Part shown: piece after piece, positions 6,952 through 28,358 of the stretch | Layout: each line of letters starts with the position of its first letter | Position numbering within the stretch: the stretch's first letter is position 1 | NCBI GenBank assembly: GCA_003558435.1 | Contig: PWLR01000197.1 | Location: forward strand, 1-40,621 | Direction of reading: 5' to 3' | DNA: 40,621 nt | Origin: Nitriliruptoraceae bacterium | Lineage (GTDB): Bacteria > Actinomycetota > Nitriliruptoria > Nitriliruptorales > Nitriliruptoraceae | Translations under genes and position numbers: made by a program | The notes under the pieces: generated by a model | What the model saw: only the letters and a program-made list of their open reading frames with translations | The model's database searches: none | What the model was told of the DNA's origin: nothing

Positions 6952-7728
6952 GTGGAGCGCGACGAGCGCACCGACCGAGGGCCGCGACGGCGTCTCGGTC
7001 GTCGCCTACCGCCGGACGCGCCGGGGCTCGCCGCCGCGCCCAAGCCCGTACCGCCATCCGCCTGGATGTTTCCCGGACCGAACGGAACCGATGACGACGG
7101 AGTCGTTGGCGTAGGTGCGGACCTGTCGCCGGCCACCTTGGTCGATGCCTACCGGCGGGGCATCTTCCCCTGGCCGCATCCCGACGTTCCGCTGCCGTGG
7201 TTCTCGCCGGATCCGCGCGGGGTCATCGAGCTCGATGGGCTCCACATCTCGCGGAGTCTGCAACGCACGTTGCGACGTTGCGGCTGGTCGACCACGGTCG
7301 ACGCCGCCTTCGACGAGGTCGTCGCCGGGTGCGCAAGCGGACGGGGCGATGCCGGGACCTGGATCACCGCGACCATGGGCGGCGCCTACAGCCGCCTCCA
7401 CGCCCTCGGATGGGCCCACAGCCTCGAGGTCTGGGACGGTGAACGGTTGGTCGGTGGCATCTACGGGGTGCAGCTCGGGGGGGTGTTCACGGGGGAGTCG
7501 ATGTTCCACCGCGAGTCGGACGCCTCCAAGGTCGCACTGGTCGATCTCGCCGCCCGGTTGCGTTCCGCCGGAGGCCGGCTTCTGGACGTCCAGTTGACCA
7601 CCGGACATCTGCGTTCGCTCGGCGCGACCGACATGCCTCGCGGTCGTTTCCTCGAGATCCTCGCCGCCGCACGCGACCTGGATGTCCGGCTGGCCACGGG
7701 GGAGCGACCCGTGGATCGGCACCTCTGA
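6952..7728 (+). CDS. aat: Leucyl/phenylalanyl-tRNA--protein transferase
   Basis: Transfers Leu or Phe from charged tRNA to the N-terminus of proteins that begin with Lys or Arg, creating N-degrons read by ClpS. The protein has 258 residues from GTG 6952, which has AGGAG five bases upstream. The first ATG (7066) would cut off the conserved PPSAWMFP block. Family signatures are DDDGVVGVGADLSP (about 47-60), YRRGIFPWPHPDVPLPWFSP (about 67-86), the GGIYGVQLGGVFTGESMF block and the C-terminal LLDVQ/LGA. The first 35 residues are a basic lineage-specific extension. It stands alone on its strand between the exonuclease gene and ahcY. Confidence 0.92.
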   Translation: MERDERTDRGPRRRLGRRLPPDAPGLAAAPKPVPPSAWMFPGPNGTDDDGVVGVGADLSPATLVDAYRRGIFPWPHPDVPLPWFSPDPRGVIELDGLHISRSLQRTLRRCGWSTTVDAAFDEVVAGCASGRGDAGTWITATMGGAYSRLHALGWAHSLEVWDGERLVGGIYGVQLGGVFTGESMFHRESDASKVALVDLAARLRSAGGRLLDVQLTTGHLRSLGATDMPRGRFLEILAAARDLDVRLATGERPVDRHL

Positions 7729-7825
7729 ACCGGTCACCGGCGCCGTTCCCACGGCCGAACGCTCGCGAGGCTGCGGCTCCACGAAACCGGGTGGGTGGCG
7801 CTGGGTGGTGGCACGGCGGGGTGAC

Positions 7826-23898: not shown

Positions 23899-24753
23899 TC
23901 ACGTTCCGCGCTGGTCCTGGCGGGACTCCTCGAGACCGGCGAGGTCGACCTCTTCCCTCGAGACGTCCTCGTCGACGGTCTCCTCGTCGACGTGGGTCTC
24001 CTTGTCGAGACGTACCCGTTCCTTCGGAACGGTCTTCTTCTCGACGTGGACCTCCTCCTGCGTCAGTTCGACCTCGTGCTCCTCCTCGGAGAGGGCCGGT
24101 CCGTCGGTGGCCTCATCGATGTTGGCCGAGTCGACGGGCTCCCGCTCGATCGTGACCTCTTCACGCTCGACGGGGACGGTCTTGGTGACGTGGTCGGTCA
24201 CCACATGCTTGCGCAGGCGCGCCTTGCCCGCGGGCTTCTCCCGCTTGGTGATCTCCAGTTCCTCTTCGGAACGGGTCATGGCGTCGTCGGTCTCCGGACC
24301 GGAGGTGTCGCGCCCGACGGTGCCGGCGGTGTCGCGTCCAACGGTGTCGGCGGTGTCGCGCCCGACGGTGCCGGTGGTGTCCGGGGTCTCGGTCGTGCGG
24401 GCCACGTCCGTGCGGTCACCGGTGGTCTCGTGGGCGGAGGGAGCTTGGAGCCCGTAGTAGCGGTACAGCTCATCCTCCTCGTCGGGGCTGAGGTGCCCGT
24501 CGGGGTCCATGTTCGGGGCGTCCTTGACCTTGTCCTTGGTCGCCGCGACCTTCAGGTCCTCGCCGGTGATGTCGGCCTGGTCGAGCGGGACGAACGAGGA
24601 CTTGAGGCCGAACAGTCCGGTGTTGACCAGGGCGAAGCTCGGTTCGCCGGTGGCGTCGTCGACGTAGACCTCGTCGACCTTGCCGATGTTCTCGCCGTCG
24701 CTGCCGACCACGTTCATGCCCGGCAGTCGATCGAGTTGCTGGCTCTCGATCAT
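23899..24753 (-). CDS. PRC-barrel and DUF2382 (YsnF/AvaK-type) protein
   Basis: A 284-residue, highly acidic cytoplasmic protein. Residues 1-75 form a PRC-barrel (GMNVVGSDGENIGKVDEVYV, then FALVNTGLFGLKSSFVPL). A linker (about 75-160) contains three repeats of TVGRDTA. The C-terminal DUF2382 domain (about 160-275) is typical: LEITKREKPAGKARLRKHV, VPVEREEVTIEREPV and HVEKKTVPKERVRL. Proteins of this build are associated with general stress responses in bacteria, but the molecular role is unknown. ATG 24753 follows GAGGGAG by five bases. No partner gene is adjacent. Confidence 0.9.
   Translation of the reverse strand: MIESQQLDRLPGMNVVGSDGENIGKVDEVYVDDATGEPSFALVNTGLFGLKSSFVPLDQADITGEDLKVAATKDKVKDAPNMDPDGHLSPDEEDELYRYYGLQAPSAHETTGDRTDVARTTETPDTTGTVGRDTADTVGRDTAGTVGRDTSGPETDDAMTRSEEELEITKREKPAGKARLRKHVVTDHVTKTVPVEREEVTIEREPVDSANIDEATDGPALSEEEHEVELTQEEVHVEKKTVPKERVRLDKETHVDEETVDEDVSREEVDLAGLEESRQDQRGT
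24305..24376 (-). repeat. Three 24-bp in-frame repeats in the PRC/DUF2382 linker
   Basis: Units begin at 24305, 24329 and 24353 and encode eight residues each (TVGRDTA plus one). They lengthen the flexible linker between the two domains and are likely to vary in copy number. Confidence 0.75.
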
Positions 24754-25421: not shown

Positions 25422-26330
25422 TCAGTCGTTGCGGCCCTGGAGGAACCGTTCGATCTCGGCGGCGAGGTCATCGGCCGAGGGCACCTGCTCTTCGGTGATG
25501 GCCGGACTCGAGGGGGAGGATCCCGAGGCCGTGGCCAGACGTTCCGCCTCGGCTTCGGCGTCGTAGAGGCGTTCGAGTTGGGCCACGTGCTCGCGCACCT
25601 CGTCCGAGCCTTCGGCGGCGACGTCCAACCGGGCGCGGTTCTCCGCCACATCCTCATCGAACGACGACAGGTCCACGGGCGTGCCGATGTGCGACGACAA
25701 CTGCTCGAGCAGCGCGCGGGCCGCCTCCGGGTACTCGCCGGCGACGTAGTGCGGGATGCGGACCCACAGTCCCAGGGTGTCGAGGCCGGCGTCGCGGAGC
25801 ACCGTCTCGAGTGCGACCTGGCAAGAGGCAGGAACGACCATCTCCTCGTGCGGACGGCCGATGCGATCGAGCAGTTCGGTGTCCGAGGACGTGGCGATGA
25901 TGTGCACGGGACGGGTGTGGGGGATGGGACCCGGCACGCTCCCGAGCCCGACGTAGCGTCCGGCCCCGACCTTCGCGCACAACTCGGCGAGATCGTTCGC
26001 GAAACCCTGCCACGCGAGATCCGGCTCCGCGCCGCAGACGAGGATCAGCGGCGGCCCGGAGGGTGGTGACAACAGTTCGATGGTTATCTCGGGCCAGTCG
26101 GGGTCGCCCAGGACACCACGGTCGATCGACAGCGCGGGGCGGCGGTCCCGGTAGTCGAACAACGCGTCCGACGGGAACCGACCGAGCGGTACCGGGGTGA
26201 ACGCCTCACGTAGCCGTCCGGCCGCAGCCGAACCGCCATCGCCGGCGTCGGTCCAGCCGTCGAGAGCTACGACGAGCACGGCGTCGGGGCCGATCTCGTC
26301 CAGTGGGTGATCGAGTCGCAACAGTTCCAT
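25422..26330 (-). CDS. PAC2 family protein (proteasome-assembly-chaperone-like)
   Basis: A 302-residue soluble protein from ATG 26330; a longer frame upstream lacks family-like sequence. Conserved blocks are VLVVALDGWTDAGDGGS (about 18-34), FPSDALFDYRDRRPALSID (about 53-71), ILVCGAEPDLAWQGFANDL (about 97-115), GLGSVPGPIPHTRP (about 128-141) and GLWVRIPHYVAGEYPEAA (about 188-205). The C-terminal 70 residues are helical and charged. PAC2 proteins are common in actinobacteria that carry a proteasome, but the bacterial function is not established. No proteasome gene is visible here. Confidence 0.9.
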   Translation of the reverse strand: MELLRLDHPLDEIGPDAVLVVALDGWTDAGDGGSAAAGRLREAFTPVPLGRFPSDALFDYRDRRPALSIDRGVLGDPDWPEITIELLSPPSGPPLILVCGAEPDLAWQGFANDLAELCAKVGAGRYVGLGSVPGPIPHTRPVHIIATSSDTELLDRIGRPHEEMVVPASCQVALETVLRDAGLDTLGLWVRIPHYVAGEYPEAARALLEQLSSHIGTPVDLSSFDEDVAENRARLDVAAEGSDEVREHVAQLERLYDAEAEAERLATASGSSPSSPAITEEQVPSADDLAAEIERFLQGRND

Positions 26331-26384
26331 GCCCCGAAGGTAGCGGCAGTGCCCCCCGATCCCGCTCGAGGCTGCGCCGGAGCG

Positions 26385-26420
26385 ACGAAGGCCGTCCCGG
26401 TCGACCGGGACGGCCTTCGT
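26385..26420 (-). terminator. 36-bp perfect palindrome after the histone-like gene
   Basis: 18-bp arms meet with no unpaired centre (ACGAAGGCC ... GGCCTTCGT around GTCGAC). It lies 59 nt after the stop of the histone-fold gene and 54 nt before the PAC2 start on the same strand, so it should end the histone-like transcript. Its perfection would work in both directions. Confidence 0.75.
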
Positions 26421-26479
26421 GATGGTGCCCTCCACGGACCCGTGCGCGACCTTCCGGCAGCGAGCCTCGCAGGGTGGGT

Positions 26480-26842
26480 CTACAGGTCGGTCGGCCGCAC
26501 CGTGCCGCGGCCGTTGCCCTTGGCGCGCTCGATCGCCTTGTCGATGATGGCCTGCACCTCGGCGTTGAGTGCCTCCGGGAAGTCACCGGCCATACGAACA
26601 TCGCCGGCCTTGACGGCCTCCTTGACCTTGGAAGCCACCACGACGTTGCCTACGGACGCTGCAGCGGTCGTCTTCTTGGTGGTCTTCTTGGCGGTCGCCT
26701 TCTTGGTGGCCTTCTTCGTGGCCTTCTTGGCCGGTGCCTTCTTGGCGGTCGCCTTCTTGGTGGCCGTCTTCTTGGCGGTGGCCTTCTTGGCCGGTGCCTT
26801 CTTGGCGGTGGCCTTCTTGGTCGTCTTCTTCGCTGCTGCCAT
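26480..26842 (-). CDS. Histone-fold DNA-binding protein with an H1-like lysine-rich tail
   Basis: A 120-residue protein from ATG 26842 (an upstream in-frame start adds 28 unrelated residues). Residues 1-60 are a tail of AKKATAKKAPAKK-type repeats, like eukaryotic H1 and actinobacterial HupB/HupS tails. Residues 66-120 are not HU. They read VVVASKVKEAVKAGDVRMAG, then a long helix (FPEALNAEVQAIIDKAIERA), then NGRGTVRPTDL. This matches a minimal histone fold: helix 1, helix 2 and the RxTxxxxD motif (R112, T114, D119) with the third helix missing, as in Bdellovibrio-type bacterial histones. The role should be DNA binding and chromosome packing. It is transcribed alone and followed by a strong palindrome. 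The fold call is by pattern only. Confidence 0.75.
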   Translation of the reverse strand: MAAAKKTTKKATAKKAPAKKATAKKTATKKATAKKAPAKKATKKATKKATAKKTTKKTTAAASVGNVVVASKVKEAVKAGDVRMAGDFPEALNAEVQAIIDKAIERAKGNGRGTVRPTDL

Positions 26843-27041: not shown

Positions 27042-28358
27042 ATGAACGAGCTGAACCTCGCGGTGGCGCGGTGGCTCGTCGGCGCCGACGGGCGACATGC
27101 GGTCGCGGAAGCGACCCAGCTGCTCGACGACGGAACCGACGAATTGCGGGTGATAACCGCGCTTCGGGCCCATATCGACGATCCCGCCCGTACCGCGGCG
27201 GCGGTTGCGGCGGGCATCGCGCGCCGGCGCGCACGAGATCGATGGGTAGAGGCCGATCGGCTGCTGTTCACGCGAGAATCGCTCGAACAAGCCAGCGACC
27301 CGGTGGTTGCCGGTTGGCGGGCGCGACGGTTCGCGGACCAACCCGTCTACGACCTGTGCAGCGGGGTCGGGGGTGACGCGATGGCCCTTGCGCGGCGCGC
27401 CCGCTCCGTCACGGCCGTGGACCGAGACGCCGCGCGGCTGGTGCTGTTGGAGCACAACGCGGCGATCCTGGGCCTGTCGGTCGCGACGCTGATCGGTGAC
27501 GCCACCGACATCGTGATCCCGACCGATCAGGTGGTTCATGCCGATCCGGCCCGACGGCGCGACGGACATCGGATGGGTGACCCCACCCGTACCGTTCCTC
27601 CCGTCGATGCCCTGGTCGCCGCGCATCTCACCGCACCCGGTCGCGCGATCGTTCTGGCTCCCGGCACGGATGCCGACCATCCGGCGCTGGGCACGGAGGT
27701 CGAGGTCGAGTACCTGCAGTTGGGCAACGACCTGGTCGAGGCGGTGGCATGGTCAGGCATCCTGCGCGACGGCTCGGCGACGGCCAGCGCCACGATCCTG
27801 CCTCGCCTCCCGGTGATCCCCACGCCTGGTGGCGCGACCGGCCCATCGCCGGGCGCCGTCCCCGGGGCCGCGCCCCCCGGAGGGACCGCGGCCAGCGATG
27901 GCGGTGCAGACCTGCCGGGCGCGGTGCACCGCAGCCGGTCGGGGGAGCGTGGGCCGCGGTTGCCGGTCGGTGACGTCGGCAGCCACCTCATCGAGGTCTC
28001 CTCGGCCGCGGTTCGGGCACGGCTCCACGACGAGATCGGTGCCGAGATCGATGCGCGTCGGCTCGCCAGACAGCGGGCGTTGTTGACCACCGACACGGCG
28101 CCACCCGATTCGCCGTGGTATCGAGCTCGGCCGGTGCTCGAGGTGTTGGCGGCCCGGCCGGGGCCGATCAAGCGGTGGCTGGCGGCTGACGATCGTGGTC
28201 CGATCGAACTCGTGCTCCACGGGGTGCGAGCCGATCCGCTCGCCTGGTGGCGGGAACTCGGACGCCCGCTGAGGGGACCGGGCGGTGTCCGTGTGGAACT
28301 CATCCGCCGGGACGACGATGCGGTCGCGGTCATCACCGGTGACCGGCGGCCGGTGTGA
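27042..28358 (+). CDS. Class I SAM-dependent methyltransferase with THUMP-like domain
   Basis: A 438-residue protein. ATG 27042 is preferred over GTG 27039 because GGAGGG (27031-27036) then sits five bases away. An N-terminal helical part (1-95) is followed by a Rossmann methyltransferase core: VYDLCSGVGGDAMAL (102-116) binds SAM, VTAVDRD (123-129) is the acidic strand end, IGDATD (151-156), and HADPARRRDGHR (166-177) is a DPAR motif in place of NPPY. The C-terminal part with LIEVSSAAVRARL and RPVLEVLAARPGPIKRW is the THUMP-like domain. A Pro/Gly-rich insert (about 265-300) separates them. The family is conserved in actinobacteria and probably modifies RNA; the site is unknown. Confidence 0.88.
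   Translation: MNELNLAVARWLVGADGRHAVAEATQLLDDGTDELRVITALRAHIDDPARTAAAVAAGIARRRARDRWVEADRLLFTRESLEQASDPVVAGWRARRFADQPVYDLCSGVGGDAMALARRARSVTAVDRDAARLVLLEHNAAILGLSVATLIGDATDIVIPTDQVVHADPARRRDGHRMGDPTRTVPPVDALVAAHLTAPGRAIVLAPGTDADHPALGTEVEVEYLQLGNDLVEAVAWSGILRDGSATASATILPRLPVIPTPGGATGPSPGAVPGAAPPGGTAASDGGADLPGAVHRSRSGERGPRLPVGDVGSHLIEVSSAAVRARLHDEIGAEIDARRLARQRALLTTDTAPPDSPWYRARPVLEVLAARPGPIKRWLAADDRGPIELVLHGVRADPLAWWRELGRPLRGPGGVRVELIRRDDDAVAVITGDRRPV

Follow-up and report, generated by a model that had tools for sequence, protein, structure and literature searches.

HU is the commonest packaging protein of bacteria. Among the described histones, those of the FtF type form a tetramer held by an arginine and an asparagine on helix a2 (HMM positions 48 and 52) and carry in addition an RxTxxxxD motif (PMC11390915). 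Many bacterial FtF histones bear tails that are mostly positive and have no conserved sequence (Schwab et al. 2024, PMC11390915), and such tailed forms have been reported in Spirochaetota, Planctomycetota, Bdellovibrionota and Myxococcota (PMC11390915). HLp of Leptospira perolatii (FtF; PDB 9QT0-9QT2; PMC12701072) is a protein of 63 residues without a long tail, the only histone of a host that also lacks HU; its interface consists of R49, N53 and R55, with an R55-D62 clamp, and about 60 bp of DNA is wrapped round the tetramer (PMC12701072). The archaeal FtF histone HTkC of Thermococcus kodakarensis (PDB 9F2C; PMC11390915) has no tail and acts alongside nucleosomal histones. Bd0055/HBb of Bdellovibrio bacteriovorus (PDB 8FVX, 8CMP) belongs to a dimeric class without the FtF tetramer residues, has no tail, and occurs in a host that has HU as well (expression of HBb and HU there is compared in PMC11390915). 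Lysine-rich tails are known from other proteins as well. The actinobacterial HU proteins HupB/HupS have a PAKK/KAAK tail at the C-terminal end of an HU core (PMC5676037, PMC11229371), and in mycobacterial HupB this tail is indispensable for nucleoid association (PMC5676037). Chlamydial Hc2 and the bacterial H1-like proteins (PF07382) are of low complexity, Lys/Ala-rich and variable in repeat number (PMC2848022), and contain no histone fold.

Here we analysed a window of 40,621 nucleotides from a Nitriliruptoraceae bacterium (assembly GCA_003558435.1, contig PWLR01000197.1), which encodes a histone with a long lysine-rich tail. The gene lies at 26480-26842 on the minus strand, with its ATG at 26842-26840 and a TAG stop at 26482-26480, and encodes 120 residues; it is supported by its translation and by same-locus orthologues in 14 genomes. 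A preliminary description had placed lysine-rich residues and a fold ending in RxTxxxxD at exactly these coordinates without stating the strand, and the open reading frame proved to be real. All 29 lysine codons in the gene are AAG. An antisense reading was rejected: the plus-strand frame is open for 121 codons but Leu/Gly/Arg-rich, as expected opposite AAG/GCC repeats. Downstream of the stop, a perfect 16-bp hairpin at 26385-26420 on the minus strand (RNA fold of 26380-26482, z-score -4.4, no T run) likely marks the end of transcription of the histone gene. The conserved downstream neighbour is a PAC2-family gene (25422-26330, minus strand; Pfam PF09754, E 8.5e-44), and the conserved upstream neighbour is a divergent methyltransferase gene (27042-28358, plus strand; Pfam Methyltransf_15, E 3.4e-5); both serve as locus markers. 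A PRC-barrel and DUF2382 protein with short repeated GRDTA/GTVGRDT segments is also encoded near the locus (23899-24753, minus strand).

Residues 63-120 (58 residues; codons 26483-26656, minus strand) are a true histone fold, as shown by sequence and predicted structure. The core matched the PDB sequences of HLp (9qt0, E 4e-9), HTkC (9f2c, 1.2e-8) and Bd0055 (8fvx/8cmp, 0.004). A profile of the 52-row alignment A2, which holds sequences from Actinomycetota, Planctomycetota, Melainabacteria, Myxococcota and Aenigmatarchaeota, matched the same three at 3.4e-17, 4.7e-14 and 9.5e-9 respectively, with no non-histone match below E 0.05. AlphaFold2 modelling of the core with the 52-row alignment gave a pLDDT of 94, with helices at core residues 8-17 and 26-47 and a short 3' turn. 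Foldseek placed HLp first (9qt0; TM 0.90, rmsd 0.8 Å), followed by HTkC and then Bd0055 (TM 0.87), and the top matches among solved structures were all bacterial or archaeal histones. Modelling the full protein from its single sequence reached a pLDDT of only 61.6, and this poor model was left out of the fold comparison. The core has no name in Pfam or NCBIfam, where every score fell under the cut-off; weak matches among the 52 family members were to DUF1931 (20), DUF5805 (9) and CBFD_NFYB_HMF (5). Identity as HU was rejected on the absence of any PF00216 match in the protein and on the agreement of fold and profile with histones, and a ribosomal or other non-histone identity is ruled out by the Foldseek and profile A2 results.

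The preliminary description had called this region a histone and named its placement in HU, a ribosomal protein or another family (residues 66-120) as the outcome that would refute the call. That check was run and no such placement resulted, so the call is supported. The structural comparison it proposed with Bd0055 and archaeal histones, run here on a single chain only, likewise returned a histone fold. Its exact RxTxxxxD motif at the end of the protein also held: the fold finishes in R112-G-T114-V-R-P-T-D119-L120, of which R112, T114 and D119 form the motif and L120 is the last residue. The two helices it placed before the motif must be corrected to three (a1, a long a2 and a short a3). Its comparison with Bd0055 held only in part, in that the protein is a histone but its closest relatives are the FtF proteins HLp and HTkC, with Bd0055 more distant.

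By sequence, the tailed histone is of the FtF type; tetramer formation and DNA binding are inferred, as the structure was predicted for a single chain only. It has the short a2 and rudimentary a3, the RxTxxxxD motif and the tetramer arginine and asparagine expected of this type. With numbering matched via the PDB-sequence alignment, HLp R49, N53, R55 and D62 correspond to R106, N110, R112 and D119. Core residues R44, N48, R50, T52 and D57 (R106, N110, R112, T114 and D119 of the full protein) are invariant in the 14-row alignment A1, and their columns are at least 90% conserved in A2. Absence of the tetramer arginine and asparagine, the criterion for the Bd0055 type, is not met, since R106 and N110 are both present. 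The protein thus shares with HLp the short a2, truncated a3, RxTxxxxD motif and R/N/R tetramer residues, and its genome resembles that of the HLp host in lacking HU, but it differs in its 62-residue tail and in having a tailless paralogue. It shares fold and tetramer residues with HTkC, which unlike it is tailless and archaeal, and shares the short bacterial histone fold and RD clamp with Bd0055/HBb.

No histone match was found in phage records, and plasmid records matched solely haloarchaeal histones. These plasmid proteins are FtF-type histones (hits H1-H20) with 46-53% identity over about 40 residues. It is conceivable that haloarchaeal plasmids were the source of the order's histones, by exchange among halophiles in shared saline habitats.

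The tail occupies residues 1-62 (codons 26657-26842, minus strand) and consists of 24 K, 21 A, 14 T and 2 P, with a net charge of +24; its coding DNA is made up of imperfect 12-15 bp tandem repeats (26666-26832). It scored 29.3 bits against Hc2 (PF07382; E 1.1e-6) where the Pfam cut-off is 40. The curated criterion for Hc2 membership is therefore not met, and the likeness is one of composition only. The Pfam scan found no winged-helix domain of linker histone H1/H5 in the protein, whose folded part is the histone fold. We consider it likely that the tail is a disordered, H1-like N-terminal extension. Claims made about it in the preliminary description held: KK-rich residues 1-60 are part of a Lys/Ala/Thr tail running over residues 1-62, the H1-like character is seen in the resemblance to Hc2 (below cut-off) and to the PAKK/KAAK tail of mycobacterial HupB (PMC5676037), and the tail is joined to a histone rather than to HU, in a genome without detectable HU. 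In HupB/HupS a Lys/Ala tail of this kind is likewise attached to a small DNA-binding core, but there the core is HU and the tail C-terminal, whereas here the core is a histone and the tail N-terminal. Hc2 and the H1-like proteins share the Lys/Ala-rich low complexity but, unlike the tailed histone, have no histone fold.

Among the locus orthologues (13 family members and a sister-family gene), the tails measure 46-80 residues with charges of +18 to +28, while their sequence drifts. FtF histones fetched from outside the order had short extensions, mostly of 3-25 residues; this non-exhaustive sample came from a search with a single peptide pattern. There is no support for the tail having been transferred directly from a local HupB, as nearly all HUs in the sister families lack a tail and only one tailed second copy was seen (G035). 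That second copy (L181/L262, G035:C45, about 64559-65152) is HupB-like, with a 69-residue KAGAKK tail of charge +28.

The tailed histone is found at one locus in 14 genomes, among them one of a sister family (G065, locus L190/L226), and in all of these orthologues it lies between the divergent methyltransferase gene and the co-directional PAC2 gene. Core identity drops to 39% in G014. Among eight cores compared by the NG86 method, dN was below dS in 27 of 28 pairs: where the core has been retained, purifying selection acts on it. One genome (G022) has two more histone copies away from the locus; in one of them (L033, G022:C153) the N-terminal extension is Arg/Ala-rich with an acidic patch, not Lys/Ala.

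The window's genome also encodes a second, tailless histone of 58 residues (L038, G000:C84). In most family loci examined, this paralogue is flanked on one side by a Fapy/Nei-type glycosylase gene and on the other by the C-terminal part of an Lhr-type helicase, a placement that hints at a link with DNA repair. No tail was seen in any of its 31 rows. Named relatives are Nitriliruptoraceae, Nitriliruptorales and Salsipaludibacter albus (Actinomycetota), the last of which carries the tailless form. A tailless doublet of two FtF folds in tandem is encoded in one ATG-started ORF of 125 residues in G065 (L183, G065:C15, about 7465-7821, minus strand), where it coexists with the separate tailed histone. 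With only 57 columns, a tree of the fold could not resolve the deep branching among tailed and tailless copies.

At the PAC2 slot, six genomes (G001, G002, G003, G005, G006 and G008) code upstream of PAC2 for a Lys/Ala protein without a histone fold, resembling the Hc2 class. No second histone match was found in these six, which makes a frameshifted fold unlikely there. Homology of these tail-only genes to the tailed histone rests on position and composition alone. In eleven further genomes neither a tailed-histone nor a tail-only gene was found at the slot; for one of them (G028) the methyltransferase neighbour was not found either. The tailed form is missing from about half of the family and is therefore not indispensable. 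In a PAC2 protein tree, the tailed histone is present in the outgroup and on several early branches (G065, G014, G020/G021, G016), while the tail-only genomes fall into two clusters. The simplest reading is that the tailed histone is ancestral and that some lineages later lost either its fold or the entire gene, with the reservation that this depends on a single-gene tree in which some early branches are long.

A whole-genome profile search of the window's genome gave no PF00216 match. Across 66 genomes of the class, histones were present in 32 of the 36 from the order Nitriliruptorales and in none of the 30 from sister families outside it, whereas HU was present in one of the 36 and in 27 of the 30; no genome had both. 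The four genomes of the order in which no histone was seen are incomplete (61-88%). The missing HU cannot be put down to incomplete MAGs, given two single-contig genomes (G009 and G016) from which HU is absent and 35 of 36 genomes without it. The sole HU in the order (L180, G030:C218:810-1073) is strongly unlike the HUs of the class, and no histone was detected in its genome; it is likely foreign, and maybe a contaminant, but there is no proof of this. Fisher tests gave p of about 1e-14 for each of the two distributions, values which overstate the evidence, as the genomes are related and essentially one evolutionary change is involved. Among 396 sampled Actinomycetota genomes, with at most 16 candidates scored per genome in the histone survey, histones were found in this order alone (18 genomes). 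HU was not found in 143 of the 396, mostly genomes without this histone either, so loss of HU requires no histone and is not special to the order. The window's genome retains actinobacterial IHF, while Lsr2 is absent from the whole class (66 genomes). The Hc2 HMM survey was too noisy for H1-like genes to be counted.

The explanation we favour is that the protein is a nucleoid protein combining an FtF histone fold with a disordered H1-like N-terminal tail, and that together with its tailless paralogue it takes on the general packaging role filled by HU in the sister families. The analysis showed the histone fold, from its sequence and its predicted structure, along with the key residues, the tail, the tailless paralogue, the fixed locus and, across the class, the mutual exclusion of HU and histone. 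As a whole the explanation is likely, although it relies on inference for the tetramer, for the wrapping of DNA, for what the tail does, for how strongly the gene is expressed and for the replacement of HU. Two chains would pair through helix a2, and two such dimers would close into a tetramer via R106/N110/R112. By analogy with HLp, the fold should wrap or bend DNA, which would run round the tetramer core, while the four +24 tails of each tetramer may neutralise flanking or neighbouring DNA and draw it in, so that the assembly would both wrap and condense. The occurrence of a tailed and tailless pair in an order without HU suggests, by inference, that the two share the work, one as a general wrapper and the other as a condenser. 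Several points count against this explanation. There are no oligomer predictions, binding or expression data; HU and histone came to exclude each other in what is essentially a single event, so that genome counts are not independent; IHF could possibly be the main packaging protein; and HU has been lost elsewhere without a histone, while the tailed form is dispensable in the family.

Three rival explanations were weighed. The protein could be a dimeric histone of the Bd0055 kind, bending or coating DNA but forming no tetramers, with a tail that merely raises affinity. The match to Bd0055 is significant (E 0.004 for the core and 9.5e-9 for the profile, with a Foldseek TM of 0.87), and a short a2 and truncated a3 are common to both. 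However, HLp and HTkC are closer in sequence and fold, and the dimer class is defined by the missing tetramer residues R and N (PMC11390915), which are nearly invariant here; we therefore consider this rival unlikely. Also unlikely is the proposal that the H1-like tail is the functional part and the fold a discardable dimerisation handle, the protein serving mainly to neutralise charge or as a counter-ion, as Hc2 or AlgP do, and perhaps binding RNA or polyphosphate. In its favour are the six genomes with a fold-free Lys/Ala protein in the same slot and the retention of tail length and charge while sequence drifts; against it stand purifying selection on the fold where it is kept and the conservation of its DNA-contact and tetramer residues. 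That the tail is an unselected repeat expansion without function, only the fold mattering, has in its favour the tandem 12-15 bp repeats of its coding DNA and the varying length of such tails, but is very unlikely given the recurrence of long, highly charged tails at the same locus in 14 genomes of two families and their absence from all 31 rows of the paralogue at the lhr-nei locus.

Bacterial FtF histones with positive tails were known already. What seems new, relative to the open-access text searched, is the H1-like tail, the lineage, the HU/histone exclusion and the tail-only derivatives. That text (supplements not covered) mentioned no histones in Actinomycetota or Nitriliruptoria and no histone with an H1/HupB-like tail, and described neither a class within which HU and histones exclude each other nor any tail-only derivative. 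Published supplementary lists may already contain some of these sequences. The lineage is perhaps unnamed in the bacterial histone literature searched because its fold scores under every Pfam and NCBIfam cut-off.

Returning to the favoured explanation, the order Nitriliruptorales may package its DNA with histones instead of HU. A bolder reading, towards which we lean by a narrow margin, is that a whole actinobacterial order exchanged HU for a two-part histone chromatin, with a tailless FtF histone at lhr-nei and an H1-tailed one beside PAC2, and that some descendants lost the fold to leave a free linker-histone-like protein, so that some genera would carry core and linker functions in one chain while others would have them separated. 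The clade is open to testing at the bench, since it includes cultured members such as Salsipaludibacter albus. If true, the sharp swap of HU for histone inside one class would be a natural experiment on chromatin change in a bacterium, and the tailed histones, tailless histones and tail-only derivatives would open two questions to direct testing outside eukaryotes and Asgard archaea: how histone tails arose, and how core and linker functions came to be separated.
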